The notes under the pieces were generated by a model, which saw nothing but the letters and a program-made list of their open reading frames with translations, was not told the DNA's origin and ran no database searches. The position numbers and the translations under genes were made by a program. 21,208 nucleotides of DNA from contig CAMNYG010000002.1 of NCBI GenBank assembly GCA_946570335.1, positions 1-21,208 of the forward strand, given 5' to 3'. Shown here piece after piece: positions 1,964 through 21,208 of the stretch. The stretch comes from an uncultured Dietzia sp. Its GTDB lineage: Bacteria > Actinomycetota > Actinomycetes > Mycobacteriales > Mycobacteriaceae. The number at the start of each line of letters is the position of its first letter. The first letter of the stretch is position 1.

Positions 1964-3031
1964 TCAGCGCACCGCGGAACCGACAGCGTCCGACAGTGAA
2001 CGAAAACCGCCCTGGCGGAGGCGCCGCGCCACGAGGCGGTTGGTCCCGCTCAATAGTGCCGGGCCGGTGAAGATGAAGCCTGTGTAGGTCTGCACCAGGT
2101 CCGCGCCGTGCGTGATGCGATCCCAGACATCCTCCGGGGTCTCGATACCGCCGACGGAGATGATCACGATCCGTCCGCCGGCCCTGCTGTAGATCCGGGA
2201 CAGCACTTCACGGGAGCGTGCCGCGACCGGTGCGCCGGAGATCCCGCCCGCGCCCATCTCCTCCACCTCGTCGGCCGGTGTGCGCAGACCCTCGCGGGAG
2301 ATGGTGGTGTTGGTCGCCACGATGCCTGCCAGCTCCAGCTCCAGCACCAGGTCGGTGACAGCATCGACGTCGGCGTCGTCAAGATCCGGAGCGATCTTCA
2401 CCAGGACCGGGATCGTGGCCACATCGCGCACAGCCGTGAGGATGGGGCGCAGCGATTCGACGGCCTGCAGATCCCGCAGCCCGGGGGTGTTGGGTGAACT
2501 GACGTTGACCACCAGGTAATCGGCGAGCCCGGTGAGCATCGTCGCCGAGGCGACATAGTCGCGCACCGCGTCCTCCGCCGGGACGATCTTGGTCTTACCG
2601 ATGTTGATACCCACCGGATCGCTGCTGCGGCGCCGACGAAGATTGTTGGCCGCATTGCCCGCCCCGTGATTGTTGAAACCCATCCGGTTGAGGATCGCCC
2701 GATCCTGCACCAGCCGGAACAGGCGCGGTGTGGGATTGCCGGGCTGGGCCGACGCGGTGACGGTGCCGACCTCACTGAATCCGAAACCGATCGCACCCCA
2801 CGAATCCACGGCGGCGGCGTTCTTGTCGAACCCCGCGGCCAACCCGAGTGGGCCGGGGAAAGAACGGCCGAGCACGTCCTGGGCGAGCACGGGGTCCCGC
2901 ACCCCGAGGATCCGGCGGACCAGCGTCCCAAGCGGAGGGACCAGCGTCAGGAGCTTGAGCAGCCCGAATACCAGGTGGTGGATCCGCTCCGCAGGAAAGC
3001 GGAACAGCAGCTTCTTGACCAGCGCGTACAC
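1964..3031 (-). CDS. pyrD: Dihydroorotate dehydrogenase (quinone), class 2
   Basis: 355-residue enzyme oxidising dihydroorotate to orotate with quinone as acceptor, the fourth step of pyrimidine synthesis. The N-terminal segment (1-45) is basic and hydrophobic, as in the membrane-associating helices of class 2 enzymes. FMN and substrate motifs follow: AAGFDKNAA (66-73), NRMGFNN (115-121), GINIGKTK (141-148), and [10 protein letters not shown] (175-184) carrying the Ser used as catalytic base in class 2 enzymes. Near the end are [26 protein letters not shown] and [11 protein letters not shown]. Start is GTG at 3031 with GGAGGA about 6 nt upstream. It lies 37 bp downstream of the lipoprotein gene on the same strand, so the two are probably co-transcribed. 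Confidence 0.97.
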
Positions 3032-7323: not shown

Positions 7324-8577
7324 ATGCACTCCTGGTCTTCGCCTGTCGTCCCCTCGGTTCCCGGCGACGGAGTCCCCCTCAGGTTGTTCGACACCGCCGA
7401 CGGCGTGGTCCGGGATCTCGCGCCCGGGCCTCTGGTCCGCATGTATGTCTGCGGGATCACCCCGTACGACACCACGCATCTCGGGCACGCCGCGACGTAT
7501 CTCACCTTCGACCTCGTGTACCGCCAGCTGCTGGATGCGGGGCATGCGGTGCATTATGTCCAGAACACCACCGACGTCGACGATCCCCTGTTCGAGCGGG
7601 CGGAACGTGACGGGATCGACTGGCGCAGCCTGGGAGACGCGGAGACCGATCGTTTCCGGGAGGACATGGAGGCTCTGCGTATCCTCCCGCCACAGCAATA
7701 CGTGGCCGCCACGGAGACCATCGACGAGGTGGTCGAGATGGTCGCTGAGCTCCTCGACCGTGGACACGCCTATCGGATCGATCCGGAGGTGGACGGTTAC
7801 TCCGACGTGTACTACCGGCATCGTGCGACACCGGATTTCGGTTACGAATCGGGATATGACGACGACGAGATGGCCGCGGCGTTCGCCGAACGGGGCGGTG
7901 ACCCGGATCGCGAAGGGAAGGAGCACCCGCTGGACGCCCTCCTGTGGCGGACCCGGCGGCCGGGTGAGCCCTCATGGGACTCGCCCTGGGGTGAGGGACG
8001 TCCGGGGTGGCACATCGAGTGTTCGGCGATCGCCCGCCGCCGGCTCGGTATGCGCTTCGACATCCAGGGTGGAGGTAGCGACCTGGCGTTTCCGCACCAC
8101 GAGTTCTCGGCGGCGCACGCCGAGGCCGCCAGCGGGGAGCGTCCGTTCGCCCGCTTCTACGTCCACGCTGCGATGATCGGCCTGGACGGCGTCAAGATGA
8201 GCAAGTCGCTCGGGAATCTCGTCCGCGTACAGACCCTGCGGGATCAGGGGGTGGACCCCTCCCTGATCCGCCTGGGGCTGGCTGCCGGGCACTATCGCAC
8301 CGACCGTTCATGGTCGGCGGAGATCCTCGAGGCGGCGCGGGCACGGCATCAACGATGGAGCCGGGCGATCGCGTGCGGGGCCGGTGCCGACGCGGACGCC
8401 GCGATCGCGGCACTGCGGGCCAGATTGGCGGACGACCTGGATACCCCGGGAGCGCTCAAGGCGATCGACTCCTGGGCCGCGGCGACACTGGAGGGTGACT
8501 CCTCGGACGTGAATGCGGGTGCCTCGGTCGCGACGGCCCTGGATGCCCTGCTGGGGGTCCGGATCACCGCCGCCTGA
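7324..8577 (+). CDS. mshC: L-cysteine:1D-myo-inositol 2-amino-2-deoxy-alpha-D-glucopyranoside ligase (mycothiol synthesis)
   Basis: 417-residue ATP-dependent ligase joining cysteine to GlcN-inositol in mycothiol biosynthesis. It is a cysteinyl-tRNA synthetase paralogue. It has Zn ligands Cys43 ([10 protein letters not shown]) and Cys233 (WHIECSAIA) with the HH of FPHHE (258-259), the HLGH signature (52-55) and KMSKS (291-295). Features separating it from CysRS are the length (CysRS is about 460 residues or more, with an anticodon domain), [15 protein letters not shown] in place of the CysRS VCGPTVYD version, and [16 protein letters not shown]. Start ATG 7324 fits the leaderless promoter. It ends 3 bp before the stop of the converging PAC2 gene, with no terminator between. 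Mycothiol production restricts the host to Actinobacteria. Confidence 0.96.
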
Positions 8578-9557: not shown

Positions 9558-12500
9558 ATGTCTGTCGATTTCGATTCGCCCTTGCTGGATGCCGCTCGTT
9601 CGCGCGTATTGATCGGCGACGGGGCGATGGGCACGATGTTGCAGGCTGTCGACCTCGACGTCGACGAAGACTTCCTCGGACTCGAGGGCTGTAACGAGAT
9701 CCTCAACGCCACCCGCCCCGACGTCGTCGAGAACATCCACCGCGCGTTCTTCGAGGCCGGCGCCGACCTGGTGGAGACCAACACCTTCGGCTGCAATCTG
9801 TCCAACCTGGGTGATTACGACATCGTCGACAGAATCGGCGAGCTGTCGGAGAAGGGCGCCGCGATCGCCCGAAAGGTCGCCGACGAGATGGGACCGTCCT
9901 CCGACGGCACCCCGCGGATGGTCCTCGGCTCCCTCGGCCCCGGCACCAAACTGCCCTCGCTCGGCCAGACCACATTCGACGAGATCCGTAGCGCGTACGC
10001 CAAGGCGGCCGAGGGACTCGCCCGGGGTGGGGCCGACGCCTACCTGATCGAGACCAGCCAGGATCTTCTCCAGGTCAAGGCGGCCGTCCTCGGTTGCCAG
10101 GACGGGATGTCCGCGGCGGGCAGACGCCTGCCGATCATCTCCCACGTGACCATCGAGACGACCGGCACCATGCTGCTGGGCTCGGACATCGGCGCCGCGC
10201 TGACCGCGTTGGAGCCCCTGGGCATCGACATGATCGGCCTCAACTGCGCCACCGGGCCGACCGAGATGGTCGAGCACCTGCGATACCTGTCCCAACACGC
10301 CAGCATCCCGGTGTCGGTCATGCCCAACGCCGGCCTGCCCGAACTGGGGGCGAACGGCGCCGTCTATCCGCTGGGTGCCGAGGAATTCGGTCCGCAGGTG
10401 GCGGACTTCGTCTCCGAGTTCGGCCTCTCCATGGTCGGCGGTTGCTGCGGCACGACGCCCGAGCACATCGCCCGGCTCAAAGAGCAGGTGCTCACCCGCA
10501 CGCAGGCCGAGCGCGAGATCGAGCCGATCAACGCGGTCTCCTCGCTCTACACCTCGATGCCGATGCGTGCCGACGCCGGCATCATCATGATCGGCGAGCG
10601 CACCAACGCCAACGGGTCCAAGCGTTTCCGTGAGGCGATGCTGGCCGGCGACTGGGAAGTCTGCATGGAGATCGCCAAGGAGCAGATGCGCGACGGCGCC
10701 CAGATGGTGGACCTGTGTGTCGACTACGTGGGTCGCGACGGTGCGGGCGACATGGCCGAACTCGCGGGACGTTTCGCCACCGCGTCCACGCTGCCGATCA
10801 TGCTCGACTCCACCGAGCCGGAGGTGATCAAGGCCGGACTCGAGCACCTCGGCGGTCGCTGCGCGGTCAACTCGGTGAACTACGAGGACGGCGCGGGTCC
10901 CGACTCGCGTTTTCAGAAGATCATGCGTCTGGTCGCCCGACACGGCCCCGCCGTCGTCGGTCTGACGATCGACGAGGAGGGGCAGGCGCGGACGGCGGAC
11001 CGCAAGGTCGAGATCGCCGAGCGTCTCATCGCCGACCTCACAGAGAACTGGGGGATGGCCGAGGACGACATCATCATCGACTGCCTGACCTTCCCCATCT
11101 CCACCGGGCAGGAGGAGGTGCGACGCGACGGTATCGAGACGATCGAGGCCATCCGTCGGCTCACCGAGGCGCATCCGCAGATCCACACCACGCTCGGTCT
11201 GTCGAATATCTCGTTCGGTCTCAACCCGGCCGCCCGTCAGGTGCTGAACTCGGTGTTCCTCCACGAGTGCATCCAGGCCGGGCTCGACACGGCGATCGCG
11301 CACAGTTCGAAGATCCTTCCGATGAGCAAGATCGACGAACGTCAGCGCGAGGTCGCGCTCGACCTGGTCTACGACCGTCGTCGAGACGGCTACGACCCAC
11401 TTCAGGTGTTCATGGAGCTCTTCGAAGGCGTGTCCGCCGCGAGCGCCAAGGACGCCCGTGCCGCCGAGCTCGCGGCGATGCCGCTCATGGAGCGGCTGGC
11501 CGCCCGGATCGTGGACGGTGAGCGTAAGGGGCTCGAGGCGGATCTCGACGCCGCTATGGAGCAGATCCCGCCGCTGGAGATCATCAACGAGCACCTGCTG
11601 AACGGCATGAAGACCGTCGGTGAGCTCTTCGGCTCCGGCCAGATGCAGCTGCCGTTCGTGCTGCAGTCGGCCGAGACCATGAAGGCCGCCGTCGCGTACC
11701 TGGAGCCGCACATGGAGGCCAGCGACGAGGACGGCAAGGGCCGGATCGTCCTGGCGACCGTCAAGGGCGATGTCCACGACATCGGTAAGAACCTCGTGGA
11801 CATCATCCTGTCCAACAACGGCTACGACGTGGTCAACATTGGTATCAAGCAACCCATCGCGGACATCATCTCCGCGGCACGGGAGAACAAGGCCGACGTG
11901 ATCGGTATGTCCGGTCTGCTGGTCAAGTCGACCGTGGTGATGCGCGACAACCTCGCCGAGCTCAACTCCGAGGGACTCGCCGACGAGTTCCCGGTACTTC
12001 TCGGCGGCGCCGCGCTGACGCGGGCCTATGTCGAGGTCGATCTCGCCGAGATGTACCAGGGCAACGTGTTCTACGCCCGGGACGCCTTCGAGGGTCTTCG
12101 TCTCATGGACGAGGTCATGACCGCCAAGCGCACCGGCGTGCCCATAACCGAGTCATCGGAGTCCGCGGCCAAGGCCGCCGAGCGTCGCGAGCGCCGTGCC
12201 CGATCGGAGAGGATCGCCGCCAAGCGGGCCGCCGAGGCCGAGCCGGTCGTCATCCCCGAGCGTTCGGATGTCGCGGCGGACCAGCCCATCGCCACCCCTC
12301 CGTTCTGGGGGACGCGGATCGCCAAGGGCATCCCCGTCGCCGACTACGCCGGTCACCTCGACGAGCGAGCCCTGTTCTTCGGCCAATGGGGCCTGCGGGG
12401 CACCCGAGGCGGCGACGGTCCGGACTACGACGAGCTGGTCGCCACCGAGGGCCGTCCCCGGCTGCGGGACTGGATCGGTCGACTGACCACCGAGGGCATC

Positions 12501-13118
12501 CTGTCGCACGCGGCGGTCGTGTACGGCTATTTCCCGGCCTACTCGGTCGGCGACGAGATCTGGGTGCTCGCCGAGCCGAAGCCTGACGCCGAGGTGCTCC
12601 ACAAGATCGCGTTCCCGCGCCAGCAGCGGCCCCGCTTCCTGGCCATCCCCGACTTCCTCGCCTCGCGCGAGCGGTGTCTGGAAGAAGGCGTCGTGGACGT
12701 GCTGCCGTTCCAGCTGGTCACCATGGGCGCACCCATAGCGGACTTCGCCAACGAGCTGTTCGCCGCGGACAACTACCGCGACTACCTCGAGGTGCACGGA
12801 TTGTCCGTGCAGCTCACAGAGGCCCTCGCCGAGTTCTGGCATCGCCGGGTCCGCGATGAGCTCAGACTCCCGCAGGGGGCCGTGTCCTCCGAGGACCCGG
12901 ACAGCATCAACGAGTACTTCAACCTGAAGTACCGGGGCGCGCGGTACAGCTTCGGTTACGGAGCCTGCCCGGACCTGGAGTCCCGCAAGGTCGTGATCGA
13001 CTTGTTGGAGCCGGAGCGGATCGGCGTGGAGCTGTCCGAGGAGCTGCAGCTACATCCAGAGCAGTCCACGGACGCGTTCGTGCTCTACCACCCGGAGGCC
13101 AAGTACTTCAACGTCTGA
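9558..13118 (+). CDS. metH: Cobalamin-dependent methionine synthase
   Basis: 1186-residue four-module enzyme transferring methyl from 5-methyltetrahydrofolate to homocysteine through methylcobalamin. The homocysteine module (1 to about 320) has Zn ligands Cys230 (GLNCATGP) and Cys296-Cys297 (VGGCCGTTP). The pterin module starts near 340 (IMIGERTNANGSKRF). The B12 module has a cap region (about 620-720) and KGDVHDIGKNL, in which His740 is the lower axial ligand (Asp738 and Gly743 complete DxHxxG). A charged linker (about 855-905) leads to the AdoMet reactivation domain, ending with RYSFGYGACPDL, the counterpart of the RxxxGYxACP motif in E. coli MetH. The length is slightly under E. coli MetH (1227), with no module missing. 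Start and leaderless promoter are described at 9545-9550. A hairpin follows the stop. Confidence 0.98.
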   Translation: MSVDFDSPLLDAARSRVLIGDGAMGTMLQAVDLDVDEDFLGLEGCNEILNATRPDVVENIHRAFFEAGADLVETNTFGCNLSNLGDYDIVDRIGELSEKGAAIARKVADEMGPSSDGTPRMVLGSLGPGTKLPSLGQTTFDEIRSAYAKAAEGLARGGADAYLIETSQDLLQVKAAVLGCQDGMSAAGRRLPIISHVTIETTGTMLLGSDIGAALTALEPLGIDMIGLNCATGPTEMVEHLRYLSQHASIPVSVMPNAGLPELGANGAVYPLGAEEFGPQVADFVSEFGLSMVGGCCGTTPEHIARLKEQVLTRTQAEREIEPINAVSSLYTSMPMRADAGIIMIGERTNANGSKRFREAMLAGDWEVCMEIAKEQMRDGAQMVDLCVDYVGRDGAGDMAELAGRFATASTLPIMLDSTEPEVIKAGLEHLGGRCAVNSVNYEDGAGPDSRFQKIMRLVARHGPAVVGLTIDEEGQARTADRKVEIAERLIADLTENWGMAEDDIIIDCLTFPISTGQEEVRRDGIETIEAIRRLTEAHPQIHTTLGLSNISFGLNPAARQVLNSVFLHECIQAGLDTAIAHSSKILPMSKIDERQREVALDLVYDRRRDGYDPLQVFMELFEGVSAASAKDARAAELAAMPLMERLAARIVDGERKGLEADLDAAMEQIPPLEIINEHLLNGMKTVGELFGSGQMQLPFVLQSAETMKAAVAYLEPHMEASDEDGKGRIVLATVKGDVHDIGKNLVDIILSNNGYDVVNIGIKQPIADIISAARENKADVIGMSGLLVKSTVVMRDNLAELNSEGLADEFPVLLGGAALTRAYVEVDLAEMYQGNVFYARDAFEGLRLMDEVMTAKRTGVPITESSESAAKAAERRERRARSERIAAKRAAEAEPVVIPERSDVAADQPIATPPFWGTRIAKGIPVADYAGHLDERALFFGQWGLRGTRGGDGPDYDELVATEGRPRLRDWIGRLTTEGILSHAAVVYGYFPAYSVGDEIWVLAEPKPDAEVLHKIAFPRQQRPRFLAIPDFLASRERCLEEGVVDVLPFQLVTMGAPIADFANELFAADNYRDYLEVHGLSVQLTEALAEFWHRRVRDELRLPQGAVSSEDPDSINEYFNLKYRGARYSFGYGACPDLESRKVVIDLLEPERIGVELSEELQLHPEQSTDAFVLYHPEAKYFNV

Positions 13119-14652: not shown

Positions 14653-14912
14653 AGACCTTCGACTCGCTGTTCGCCGAACTGTCCGAGCGGATCTCCGCGC
14701 GCCCTGAGGGGTCCGGAACCGTCACCGCGTTCGACAAGGGCGTGCACCATCTGGGCAAGAAGGTCATCGAAGAGGCCGGCGAGGTGTGGATCGCGGCCGA
14801 GTACCAGTCCGATGCCGAACTGGCGGAAGAGATCTCGCAGCTTCTGTACTGGACCCAGGTCATGATGCTCAAGCGGGGTCTGGACCTCGAGGACGTCTAC
14901 CGGCACCTGTAA
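14649..14912 (+). CDS. hisE: Phosphoribosyl-ATP pyrophosphatase
   Basis: 87-residue enzyme hydrolysing phosphoribosyl-ATP to phosphoribosyl-AMP, step 2 of histidine synthesis. It has the all-alpha MazG-like motifs: [16 protein letters not shown] (35-50, with Glu41, Glu42 and Glu45 for Mg) and [13 protein letters not shown] (57-69). The size matches stand-alone actinobacterial HisE, with no HisI fusion. The GTG start overlaps the HAD stop; a GAGAAT hexamer ending 7 nt before it (14636-14641) could also drive an internal leaderless message. hisG follows after 47 bp. Confidence 0.96.
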
Positions 14913-14959
14913 GCCGCACTCAACGCACCACCTTCACGCACACACCTCTTGGAGCCGCC

Positions 14960-15811
14960 ATGCTGCGCGTCGCAGTGCCCAACAAGGGCGCCCTGTCCGA
15001 GTCCGCTTCCGAGATGCTCGCCGAGGCCGGCTACCGCCGTCGGCCCGAGGGCAGCAAGGACCTCTCGCTCATCGATCGCGAGAACGATGTCGAGTTCTTC
15101 TTCCTGCGCCCCAAGGACATCGCGGTCTACGTCGGTTCGGGCCGTCTCGAACTGGGGATCACCGGCCGTGACCTGAGCGCGGATTCGATGGCCGACGTGG
15201 AAGAACTTCTCGAATTGGGTTTCGGCCGCTCGACGTTCCGCTACGCGGGTCCCGCGGGCGACGGCTGGAGCACCGACCGACTGGCCGGCGCCCGGATCGC
15301 CACCTCGTACCCCAATATCGTCCGGCGGGATCTGCGGGAGCGCGGCATCGAGGCGGAAGTGATCCGCCTGGATGGTGCCGTGGAGATCTCCATCCAGTTG
15401 GGGGTGGCCGACTGCATCGCCGACGTGGTGGGATCCGGCAGAACCCTCAAGACCCACGGTCTCGAGGCGTTCGGAGAGGTACTGTGCGCCTCCTCGGGGG
15501 TGCTCATCGCGCGGGCAGACGCACAGGTCACACCTGCGATGGCTCAGATGCGGGCACGGTTGCAGGGCGTGGTCTTCGCGCAGCAGTACATGATGCTCGA
15601 CTACAACTGTCCCCGCGAGCTGCTGGACGACGTCTCCGTCATCACGCCCGGACTGGAATCGCCCACTGTCTCACCGATGGCGGATCCGGCGTGGATCGCG
15701 GTGCGGTCAATGGTGCCGCGTAAGCAGGTGAACTCGATCATGGACCGGTTGGCTTCGGCCGGCGCGAAGTCGATCATCGCGACCGACATCCGCTCCTGCC
15801 GGATGGGCTGA
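14960..15811 (+). CDS. hisG: ATP phosphoribosyltransferase, long form with regulatory domain
   Basis: 283-residue first enzyme of histidine synthesis, condensing ATP with PRPP. It starts [16 protein letters not shown], the typical HisG opening. The PRPP-binding loop is [20 protein letters not shown] followed by [11 protein letters not shown] (138-168). The C-terminal domain (about 212-283), with [19 protein letters not shown] and the end [13 protein letters not shown], is the ACT-like histidine-feedback domain of the hexameric long form, so no HisZ is needed. ATG 14960 has GGAG 6 nt upstream. The last 5 codons and stop are copied by the 30-bp tandem repeat that follows. Confidence 0.97.
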
Positions 15812-15884: not shown

Positions 15885-16652
15885 TCAGACCTGTTCGATG
15901 AGCAGGGCCTGCAACGTGTGGCCGATCGCACCGGCGTGGTCGTACAGCCTCCCGGACGTCGCGCCCACTCCGTCGGGGCCGACGGAGGCGTCAGCTGCGA
16001 CGCCGATCCATTCGCCTTCCGGGAGACGGTGCAGGTGCGTGACCAGGTCGGTGTTGAGGAACCGCCATTCGGTCGGTTCGAGAACCGCGCCGACCCCGTT
16101 GGCGATATCGGCCACGCACATGACCCGTTCCGCCCTGGTCATGGTCTCGTCGGCGACGAGGGGGAGCCGAGGGCGGGCCCACACGACACCCTGACCGTCG
16201 CCGCGGATCTCCAGCGAATCAATGTATCCGCTGGACCATCGTGTGAAGAAGGAGCTGTCGTGGTCCTGCGTCGGAAGTGCGACGCGCTGATCCGCGGTCT
16301 GCTCGACGACGGCCGTGTCCTGCGTGCGCATCTGCCAGGCGCTGGCTCGCGCGACCGTCCGTCCGTTTGCTTCGAGTTCGGCCTCGAGTAATTGGATGCG
16401 CCGGCCCGGACGCGCCACACGGGCACGGGTGCGGAGCTCGCCCAACGGTACGGGCCCGAGCAGGTCCACGGCGATGCGTGCCAGTCGGGTCTGTCCGGTG
16501 GGGTCGAGTCGGTCCATCGCCCGGGTGAGAAGCGCAGACGGCGGCGCCCCGTGCTGGAGGTCAGGCCCCCATGCGCTGACCGTGTGCTCGGTGGCCCGGA
16601 AGCTCTCCCAGCCGTCGCTGCGCCCCAACGGCTCGAAGTAGCCCTGCGTCAT
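15885..16652 (-). CDS. Thioesterase superfamily protein (double hot-dog, TesB-like)
   Basis: 255-residue protein resembling acyl-CoA thioesterase II-like proteins with two fused hot-dog domains. The first domain shows the helix-start motif HGAPPSALLTRAMD (34-47) and RIAVDLLGPVPLGELRTRAR (59-78). The second shows WRFLNTDLVTHLHRLPEGEW, then the C-terminal SGRLYDHAGAIGHTLQALL, typical of this family. The acyl substrate is unknown. The ATG at 16652 has AAGGAG (complement of 16664-16659) 6 nt upstream; the longer open frame overlaps the RecB-like gene. It follows that gene by 17 bp on the same strand and is likely co-transcribed with it, although no functional link is obvious. Confidence 0.85.
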   Translation of the reverse strand: MTQGYFEPLGRSDGWESFRATEHTVSAWGPDLQHGAPPSALLTRAMDRLDPTGQTRLARIAVDLLGPVPLGELRTRARVARPGRRIQLLEAELEANGRTVARASAWQMRTQDTAVVEQTADQRVALPTQDHDSSFFTRWSSGYIDSLEIRGDGQGVVWARPRLPLVADETMTRAERVMCVADIANGVGAVLEPTEWRFLNTDLVTHLHRLPEGEWIGVAADASVGPDGVGATSGRLYDHAGAIGHTLQALLIEQV

Positions 16653-16669
16653 GGTCTGCTCCTTGGGTG

Positions 16670-18454
<1,785 letters not shown>

Positions 18455-18557: not shown

Positions 18558-20261
18558 GTGACCGAGGAACGTTCCCCGGCCGGACAGGGTGACGATCGTG
18601 TGACGGTCGACCGGGCGGAGCTGGCGCGGCTTCGTAAGGCGGCTGACGAGGGGGCCCGGTCGGAGCGCGAGAAGTCGATCAAGATCGATGCTCTGGGCGC
18701 ACGCAACGTCCGTCTCGCGGAGTTGCTCAAGGACTCGCGGGACCAGCTGGAGGCGCTCAAGGGCGAGGTCGAGCGGCTCGGTACGCCGCCCAGCACGTAT
18801 GGCGTCGTCCTGGCGCCGCCGGCCGACTCCGAGACGGTGGAGGTCATGACCTCGGGCCGTCGCATGCTGCTGACACTCGCTCCCGGCGTCGAGCCGGAGA
18901 CGTTGCCGGTGGGCACGACGGTTCGTCTCAACGAGGCGCTGACCGTGCTCGGGGCGTCCGCGGAGCTGCCTGTCACCGGCGTCACCGCAGTGTTCCGTGA
19001 CGTCCTGGCGGACGGACTGCGGGCCCGAGTGGTGATGGGTAACGACGAAGAGCACATCGTCCATCTGGCCGAGCACCTGCGTGGTGGGCGCACCGCCGAC
19101 CGTCCGGCACCGGTGCGCCCCGGTGACGCGCTCCTCGTCGACCCGAAGGCCGCCATCGCGTTCGAGGTCGTGCCCAAGGCGGAGGTCGATGAGCTCCTGC
19201 TCGAGGAGATCCCGACCGTCGACTACTCGGACATCGGTGGACTGGGAGCCCAGATCGAGCAGATCCGCGACGCGATCGAGCTGCCCTTCATCCACCACGA
19301 CCTGTACCGGGAGTTCCACCTCGCCCCTCCCAAGGGTGTGCTGCTCTACGGGCCGCCCGGCTGCGGAAAGACCCTGATCGCCAAGGCCGTTGCCCATTCG
19401 CTGGCCCGAGCCGCTGCGGTGTCACGAGGAGACGACGTGGGGGACGGCCGGTACCCCAACTCGTACTTCCTGTCGATCAAAGGACCGGAGCTGCTCAACA
19501 AGTACGTCGGCGAGACGGAGCGGCACATCCGTTCGATCTTCGAGCGGGCGCGGGAGAAGGCGACCGAGGGCAACCCGGTGATCGTCTTCTTCGACGAGAT
19601 GGACTCGATCTTCCGGACCCGCGGGTCCGGTGTGTCCTCGGATATGGAGACCACGATCGTGCCGCAGCTGTTGGCGGAGATCGACGGGGTGGAGGATCTG
19701 CGCAACGTCATCGTGATCGGCGCCTCCAACCGCGAGGACATGATCGACCCTGCCATCCTTCGTCCGGGCCGGTTGGACCTGAAGATCAGGATCGACCGAC
19801 CGGACAGGGAGGCCGCCGTCGACATCCTGGGCAAATACATCACCACCGATCTGCGCTTCGACCCGGAGGACGTGGGCGGGGCGGACACCGAGGAGCACGT
19901 GCGCACGCTCATCACGCGGATCGCCGACAGGCTCTACACCCGTGATGCCTCCACCACGTATGTGCACCTGGTGTTCGCCTCCGGCCGGAGGTCCTCTCTG
20001 TACCTGGCCGACCTGACGTCGGGTGCGATGCTGCGCAACATCGTGGACCGCGCCAAGAAACTGGCGATCAAAAACATCGTCCACGGCAACGGACAGGGGC
20101 TCACGACCGACGACTTCCTCGACGCGGTGGACGCCGAGTTCGCCGAGAACACCGACCTGCCCAATACCTCCAACCCACAGGAGTGGGCGCGGTTGTCCGG
20201 CGTGCGGGGCGAGAGGGTCGTCGAGGTGTCGATCCCGAACAGGGGGAGGGTGCATGAGTGA
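18558..20261 (+). CDS. mpa: AAA+ proteasomal/Pup-dependent unfoldase Mpa/ARC, lacking the C-terminal GQYL tail
   Basis: 567-residue hexameric ATPase that binds pupylated proteins and unfolds them. Order of parts: coiled coil for Pup recognition (about 18-78); tandem OB domains (about 80-210); AAA module with [18 protein letters not shown], Walker A GPPGCGKT (265-272), pore loop NKYVGE (314-319), Walker [13 protein letters not shown] (341-352), sensor Asn391 (GASNRED) and arginine finger region RPGRLD (402-407). The C-terminal subdomain runs to [11 protein letters not shown] and [10 protein letters not shown]. It then ends in [10 protein letters not shown], whereas M. tuberculosis Mpa (609 residues) continues to a GQYL tail that inserts into the 20S core. 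Start is GTG 18558, about 12 nt after GGAGG. The stop overlaps dop by 8 bp, so the two are translationally coupled. Confidence 0.96.
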
Positions 20262-21208
20262 CGACGTGCGGGCTGCCGACTCCGTCCGCGGGAGGATCAT
20301 CGGCACCGAGATCGAGTTCGGCATCGTCGCCGTGGGGCAGCCGATGCTCAGCTCGGTCGTCACCTCGACCCAGGTGATCAAGGCCTACACAGATCACGGC
20401 GAGCGCGCCGGGGGCGCCGACGAGGCGCACTGGGGCTACGACTCGGAGTCCCCGCTGCGCGATGCACGCGGCTTCGATCTGGGTATCGCCCGCGCGTATG
20501 ACCCGAGCGAATTCGGCGTGACCAACCGGGTGCTCACCAACGGGGCCCGGTTCTACGTCGACCACGCACACCCCGAGTACTCGGCCCCCGAGGTCGACTC
20601 CCCGCGGGACGCTGTGATCTGGGACAAGGCCGGCGAGGTGATCATGCACCGTGCCGGCGTCGAGTCGTCGGCCACCAGGGGGAACGCGCAGCTCAAGCTC
20701 TACAAGAACAACGTCGACGGCAAGGGCGCCTCCTACGGTGCACACGAGAACTACCTCGTGCGCCGCGACGTCGACTTCGACGCGCTCACCGTCAGTCTCG
20801 CCACACACCTGCTGTCCCGGCAGATCTATACCGGTGCCGGCCGGGTGGGGATCGGCCAGGAGGGTCAGACTGCCGGGTTCCAGATCTCGCAGCGTGCGGA
20901 CTACATCGAGGTCCTCACCGGGCTCGAGACCACCTTGCGGCGAGGGATCATCAACACCCGCGACGAATCTCACGCCACGGACGAGATCTGGCGGCGGCTG
21001 CACGTGATCATCGGCGACGCCAACATGTCCGAGCTCGCGACCTACCTCAAGATCGGCACCACGTGCCTGGTGCTGGACGCGATCGAAGCCGGCATCGACT
21101 TCGCCGACCTGCTGCCGGAGGACCCGGTCGCCGCGGTCCACACGATCAGCCACGACCCGGGCCTCACCGCGACAGTGACGCTCACCGACGGCCGGGAGCT
21201 CACTGCGC
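20254..21208 (+). CDS. dop: Pup deamidase/depupylase Dop, N-terminal 318 residues (cut by window end)
   Basis: Open to the window edge; full Dop is about 500 residues. Dop converts Pup C-terminal Gln to Glu and removes Pup from substrates, using a glutamine-synthetase-like fold. The start [15 protein letters not shown] carries the ATP/Mg-binding Glu strand. [16 protein letters not shown] is retained from the Dop-specific loop that separates Dop from the ligase Paf[54 protein letters not shown] and [17 protein letters not shown] align with M. tuberculosis Dop as I recall it. ATG 20254 has GGGGGAGG just upstream and overlaps the mpa stop (ATGAGTGA). Pup, and prcBA if present, would lie beyond the window. 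Confidence 0.95.

Follow-up and report, generated by a model that had tools for sequence, protein, structure and literature searches.

The 3' end of an uncultured Dietzia contig carries an mpa/arc gene whose product ends shortly after its last conserved strand, where Mpa continues into a C-terminal tail that docks onto the 20S proteasome core. This raises the question of whether the tail is truly lost in this lineage, and if so what the ATPase now works with. The window, meaning the whole stretch of DNA analysed (21,208 nucleotides), is an entire contig of a genome that is 64.6% complete and distributed over 426 contigs. Mpa contacts the 20S core twice, through its GQYL terminus and through the beta-hairpin loop 501-ANGDK-505, as visualized by cryo-EM (passages of PMC9599533 and PMC8755798), and the equivalents of both sites lie within the window, which has the following features.

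1964-3031, minus strand: dihydroorotate dehydrogenase (Pfam)
7324-8577, plus strand: class I tRNA synthetase, (C) type (Pfam)
9558-13118, plus strand: B12-dependent methionine synthase (Pfam)
14786-15811, plus strand: HisG (Pfam)
15885-16853, minus strand: acyl-CoA thioesterase (Pfam)
16670-17599, minus strand: PD-(D/E)XK nuclease (Pfam)
17531..18454, plus strand: tRNA methyltransferase of the TrmI type, preceding arc; start codon unassigned
18558..20261, plus strand: mpa/arc, proteasomal AAA+ ATPase; GTG start, 567 aa, intact open reading frame without the proteasome-docking tail
19350..19373, plus strand: Walker A motif GPPGCGKT, the same as in mycobacterial Mpa
19977..19991, plus strand: beta-hairpin loop ASGRR, changed equivalent of the second 20S contact of Mpa (501-ANGDK-505); position by alignment, loop function from passages of PMC9599533 and PMC8755798
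20208..20228, plus strand: GERVVEV, the final conserved strand ahead of the tail
20229..20258, plus strand: short variable C-terminus of 10 residues, replacing the Mpa tail that ends in GQYL
20254..21208, plus strand: dop (depupylase/deamidase), 5' part, truncated by the contig end; its first 8 bp, beginning with the ATG, overlap the end of arc

The ARC ATPase and its two docking sites

The product of the window gene belongs to the Mpa/ARC family, scoring 712.3 bits against NCBIfam pup_AAA (TIGR03689, cut-off 504.75) and containing the OB domains (PF17758 and PF16450) and the AAA motor with Walker A (PF00004), but it lacks the C-terminal GQYL. Judged by its sequence it is an ARC, but not one of the proteasome-coupled type. 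The nearest named relative among the matches listed is Candidatus Dietzia intestinigallinarum, with 95% identity over ARC.

When aligned with a solved 609-residue Mpa chain, the protein matches as far as window residue 558, corresponding to chain residue 585; GERVVEVS is followed by nine unaligned residues and the stop codon, with no GQYL. The first-pass annotation had the protein ending about 25 residues early, which agrees with the aligned part, stopping 24 residues short of the Mpa end, but not with the net shortening, which is 15 residues once the nine residues of its own are counted. It correctly placed the dop ATG at 20254 with its 8-bp overlap, whereas the RIIGTE of dop begins at 20293, position 20290 being the Gly before it. 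Its statement that no frame holds a tail stands for the three forward frames, in which no xxY[LIMVF] motif is present between 60 nt upstream and 150 nt downstream of the stop, either at the window locus or at 10 other Dietzia loci.

The tail is missing throughout the genus. ARC lacks GQYL in all 23 Dietzia genomes searched, three of which (G016, G020 and G022) are single-contig assemblies; 22 of these ARCs are in one alignment that includes the window (locus L003 being counted as genome G002), G011 was added as locus L086, and loci L002, L004 and L005 were left out, their ARCs being identical to those of L171, L172 and L181. Identical ARCs also help to tie the search group g1 to Dietzia. The proposed tail loss is borne out, and at named non-Dietzia loci GxYL ends all 76 ARCs (73 were also read with a narrower pattern). 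In the fetched DNA, 58 of these 76 loci have both prcB and prcA and one (L021) has prcB alone; the remaining 17 are uninformative, 15 being without pup or pafA and two (L012 and L075) having pup but no pafA. Comparison across genera adds two further tail-less groups whose names are inferred, a Corynebacterium-like group (g3) and the presumably Lawsonella-like g4, with no tail motif in 23 g3 ARCs and one g4 ARC read directly. PafA from two of the 23 g3 genomes has as its best PDB match 4b0t, which we take to be the C. glutamicum PafA enzyme. Searches with the Mpa C-terminus gave E values of 3.8e-30 or lower in all 211 genomes of the family sample that are positive for 20S subunits (PF00227), and none better than 5.5e-14 in the 40 negative genomes, three of which have no match at all.

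The residues that take the place of the tail are variable even inside Dietzia, with an identity of 0.44 over tail positions against 0.95 in the AAA domain among 11 Dietzia rows (the region borders for these and the following identity figures were set by the analyst). Between these rows and 14 tailed Mycobacteriales rows the tail identity is 0.08 and that of the AAA domain 0.81, compared with 0.95 for the AAA domain among tailed rows; for the linker and beta-grasp region the corresponding values are 0.43 and 0.86. The deep-branching Dietzia-group ARC of G022 (locus L184) has a longer tail after GERVVEV, also without the motif, which may represent another stage of tail erosion.

The second docking site is changed as well. 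The loop reads ANGDK in every one of the 76 named non-Dietzia rows and ASGRR in 23 of 25 Dietzia rows, with ASGRT and ASGKT in the remaining two. ANGDK is in none of the 23 g3 rows nor in the g4 row, and the g3 loops are diverse, 19 forms being represented; neither GxYL nor ANGDK occurs in any of the 49 tail-less rows (0/49 for each). Lack of conservation at this loop had been reported in 2022 for C. glutamicum and further species without 20S (in part of PMC8755798).

The 20S core, Bpa and the Pup locus

PF00227 gave no match in the 23 Dietzia genomes, 15 of which are at least 90% complete, and none in the genome of the window, and a 20S core encoded elsewhere in the genome was rejected. The window contig stops within dop, and pup and pafA were therefore read from relatives only. 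Downstream of dop, where the first-pass annotation would have looked for core genes, all 24 Dietzia loci (of which L002, L004 and L005 repeat a genome) have pup and then pafA, the locus running ARC, dop, pup, pafA without anything between the last two that matches prcB or prcA. The window's own genome has no match to Pup, 20S, Bpa or Cpa, absences that at 64.6% completeness are not decisive alone.

The core is otherwise common in the family, with PF00227 in 211 of the 251 sampled genomes and 27 of 30 genera, and class-wide in 308 of 393 genomes. The 40 negative family genomes comprise 16 from Dietzia (g1), 23 from g3 and one from g4, 20 of the 40 being assigned by subtraction. Among the g3 and g4 loci, 19 of 20 have pup and pafA but no prcB or prcA match, and L269 is too short. 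Bpa, the other GQYL protein, is present in 26 of 27 representatives of 20S-positive genera, and absent from all 47 genomes of g1, g3 and g4 (0/23 in Dietzia); as an alternative carrier of GQYL it was rejected. The one PF00227-positive genome without a Bpa match is G029.

Dietzia thus has the features of a 20S-less Pup system of the Corynebacterium type: no core genes, pup before pafA, and neither GQYL nor ANGDK. Corynebacteria and others without core genes, with pup directly 5' of pafA and with ATPases that have no C-terminal interaction motif, were described in 2012 (passages of PMC3511204), so that tail loss in Dietzia is to be expected rather than a surprise. The core genes are reported to have been lost in about half of sequenced actinobacteria (in part of PMC6466877).

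All 24 Dietzia Pups read end in YVQKGGQ, and it follows from established knowledge of Pups ending in GGQ that Dop must still deamidate them (passages of PMC3511204). Of the g3 Pups read, 14 of 18 also end in GGQ and four in GGE, and a Gln-ending Pup was rejected as a Dietzia hallmark. At three g3 loci (L272, L275 and L276) arc and dop are ~2.9 to 4.3 kb apart, and at a fourth (L277) a dop-like match and pup are similarly spaced.

Probable origin and activity of the Dietzia ARC

In a tree of 42 ARC rows chosen by hand from 125, all 22 tail-less rows group on a single branch with SH-aLRT support of 98.9; the Dietzia stem (1.2) and g4 (1.52) are long branches, between which mutual attraction is possible. 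A core-genome study places the Corynebacteriaceae, Lawsonellaceae and Dietziaceae in one lineage (in part of PMC10653829). With the tail-less ARCs on one branch, the pattern is explained by one ancient loss of the core.

We therefore favor, with a probability of roughly 0.85, the reading that the window encodes the ARC ATPase of a 20S-less Pup system, in which the core was lost once in an ancestor, the docking sites diverged, and the motor and Pup, PafA and Dop were kept. Dietzia, Lawsonella and Corynebacterium probably descend from an ancestor in which prcBA and bpa were lost a single time; with no core to dock onto, ARC would have been released from constraint at its GQYL tail and beta-hairpin loop, which would then have diverged, while its motor and the genes for Pup, PafA and Dop would have been retained. 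The system likely runs a non-degradative Pup cycle of tagging by PafA, unfolding or disassembly by ARC, and removal of Pup by Dop. In this cycle ARC would grip proteins pupylated by PafA by their Pup and unfold or disassemble them, and its action would expose the Pup bond to Dop; the scheme is modelled on C. glutamicum, where ARC is proposed to disassemble pupylated ferritin (passages of PMC8223512 and PMC12288473). The first-pass annotation had suggested such a proteasome-independent ARC/Pup/Dop pathway as in Corynebacterium, and the absence of PF00227 from 23 genomes and of prcB and prcA matches from 24 loci agrees with it, the unfolding and depupylation activities and their substrates being predicted by analogy.

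The Dietzia ARC is under purifying selection, with dN/dS of 0.045-0.148 in 8 pairs within the genus. All 23 Dietzia genomes have it, in matches free of inner stops, and its Walker A and Walker B stretches match those of mycobacterial Mpa exactly; an F-to-Y substitution distinguishes the pore-loop stretch, and the Pup-binding coiled coil aligns, with an identity to tailed rows of only 0.46.

These observations bear on two other accounts of the gene. Identity between Dietzia and tailed ARCs is 0.547, compared with 0.806 among tailed rows, and such fast evolution after the loss could be that of a functionless remnant on its way out; the presence of the gene in every genome without inner stops, the kept Walker motifs, the low dN/dS and the intact operon make this very unlikely. 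ARC could instead have been re-purposed to pass proteins to another peptidase, for example ClpP1P2, through the beta-grasp face that bears the ASGRR loop, and the recurrence of that loop in 23 of 25 Dietzia rows fits this, as does a linker and beta-grasp region that is conserved among the 11 Dietzia rows (0.862) and only 0.431 identical to tailed rows. In g3, however, the loop varies freely (23 rows have 19 forms), and constancy within the genus needs no more than a conserved fold, so that a hand-over of this kind appears unlikely.

Two further accounts concern docking and the assembly itself. Docking of a core by other means, the first-pass annotation's second suggestion, would have ARC still serving a 20S core through another element or a GQYL-ending adaptor, and tail-free docking is possible in principle, Cpa having been published as a 20S binder without the penultimate Tyr motif (passages of PMC6017811). 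With neither PF00227 nor Bpa in any of 23 genomes and with the ANGDK contact loop changed, it is extremely improbable here and would require a core too diverged for PF00227 to recognize. An assembly error or recent frameshift that took the tail off in this genome would be in keeping with its fragmentary state (64.6% complete, 426 contigs), but the same state in all 23 Dietzia genomes, including the single-contig G016, G020 and G022, reduces its likelihood practically to nil, as the first-pass annotation had anticipated in judging a recent frameshift unlikely. A tail hidden by a frameshift or in an alternative forward frame was likewise rejected, none being present in the three forward frames and independent genomes being tail-less.

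Cpa and comparison with known systems

A search for a second ARC-like ring in Dietzia found a Cdc48-like protein, Cpa, encoded in G002 by a 744-codon open frame. It aligns over its whole length (898 bits) with the solved Cdc48 chain 5e7p, which we take to be the M. smegmatis protein. The Cpa proteins of G020 and G022 contain CDC48_N and two AAA stretches, and at loci L186 and L252 the D1 Walker A is mildly degenerate (GPPGVGKA/GPAGVGKA) and that of D2 strict (GPPGCGKT), which is the domain and motif arrangement of Cpa. Cpa is encoded in 19 of the 23 Dietzia genomes, among them all 15 near-complete ones, the four genomes without it being 64.6 to 87% complete. The Dietzia cpa loci are L186, L187, L205, L224-L235 and L251-L257; some draft genomes have the gene fragmented across two contigs, and in the single-contig genome G016 it is split over two frames (L256; G016:C1:3024811-3027071; matches 2-530 and 511-743), reflecting either sequencing error or decay.

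Among representatives of 20S-positive genera, 18 of 27 have Cpa; the nine without it are G027, G029, G032-G034, G036-G038 and G045. Cpa is absent from all 24 genomes of g3 and g4, whose best match spans only the second AAA module, at ~181 bits or less, an absence judged by the analyst's reading as other AAA proteins also exceed the threshold. Within Dietzia the dN/dS of Cpa is 0.10 to 0.15 (7 pairs). Identity between 8 Dietzia and 18 20S-positive copies is 0.617, compared with 0.704 among the latter, a smaller drop than in ARC (0.547 against 0.806), so that loss of the core loosened ARC but not Cpa.

The upstream neighbor of cpa in G020 is an esterase gene and not pssA, and the psd-pssA-cpa operon, which marks branches 1 and 2 of the Cpa family only, was not found there; published branch 3 is likewise without it. 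Synteny with pssA was rejected as proof of orthology, the neighbors being different. A recent transfer of Cpa from one 20S-positive genus is unsupported, 12 Dietzia and 18 other Cpa proteins lying on opposite sides of a tree without an outgroup.

Dietzia contradicts the published rule that no actinobacterium without core genes encodes Cpa (section 6 of PMC6017811; passages of PMC6466877 and PMC8223512). No exception to it is given in sections 6, 11 and part of 13 of PMC6017811, nor in portions of PMC6466877, PMC8223512 and PMC12288473. With the rule broken in Dietzia, the conserved core function of Cpa, which is under purifying selection, would probably be independent of the proteasome, and its binding to 20S in mycobacteria would be secondary. 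This exception carries more weight than the loss of the tail, since co-occurrence had been one argument for Cpa working with the proteasome, and it makes Dietzia a natural host in which to probe the Cpa-proteasome link without deleting the core.

Tail-less ARCs of 20S-less Pup systems are already known, and Dietzia, together with a Lawsonella-like genome, is added to them as a further case. No paper was found that joins Dietzia, the proteasome and pupylation, and Dietzia is unmentioned among the matching papers that were listed. In this family the GQYL tail, the ANGDK loop, Bpa and the core are shown to go together.

The Dietzia ARC resembles mycobacterial Mpa in its family, its motor motifs and the order of dop and then pup, and differs in having neither the GQYL tail nor the ANGDK loop, with no core or Bpa found. 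The Dietzia Cpa in turn differs from the solved Cdc48-like Cpa (5e7p) in occurring without a detectable 20S core. The closest likeness is to C. glutamicum, which has no prcBA, has pup directly before pafA, and has an ARC with neither C-terminal motif nor ANGDK (passages of PMC3511204 and PMC8755798); the sampled g3 genomes share this 20S-less state. Pup ends in Glu in C. glutamicum (in part of PMC3511204), whereas all 24 Dietzia Pups read end in GGQ. Dietzia is further set apart from the Corynebacterium type, in which Cpa is expected to be absent under the published rule, by its own loop state, ASGRR, and by the retention of Cpa, which none of the 23 g3 genomes has.
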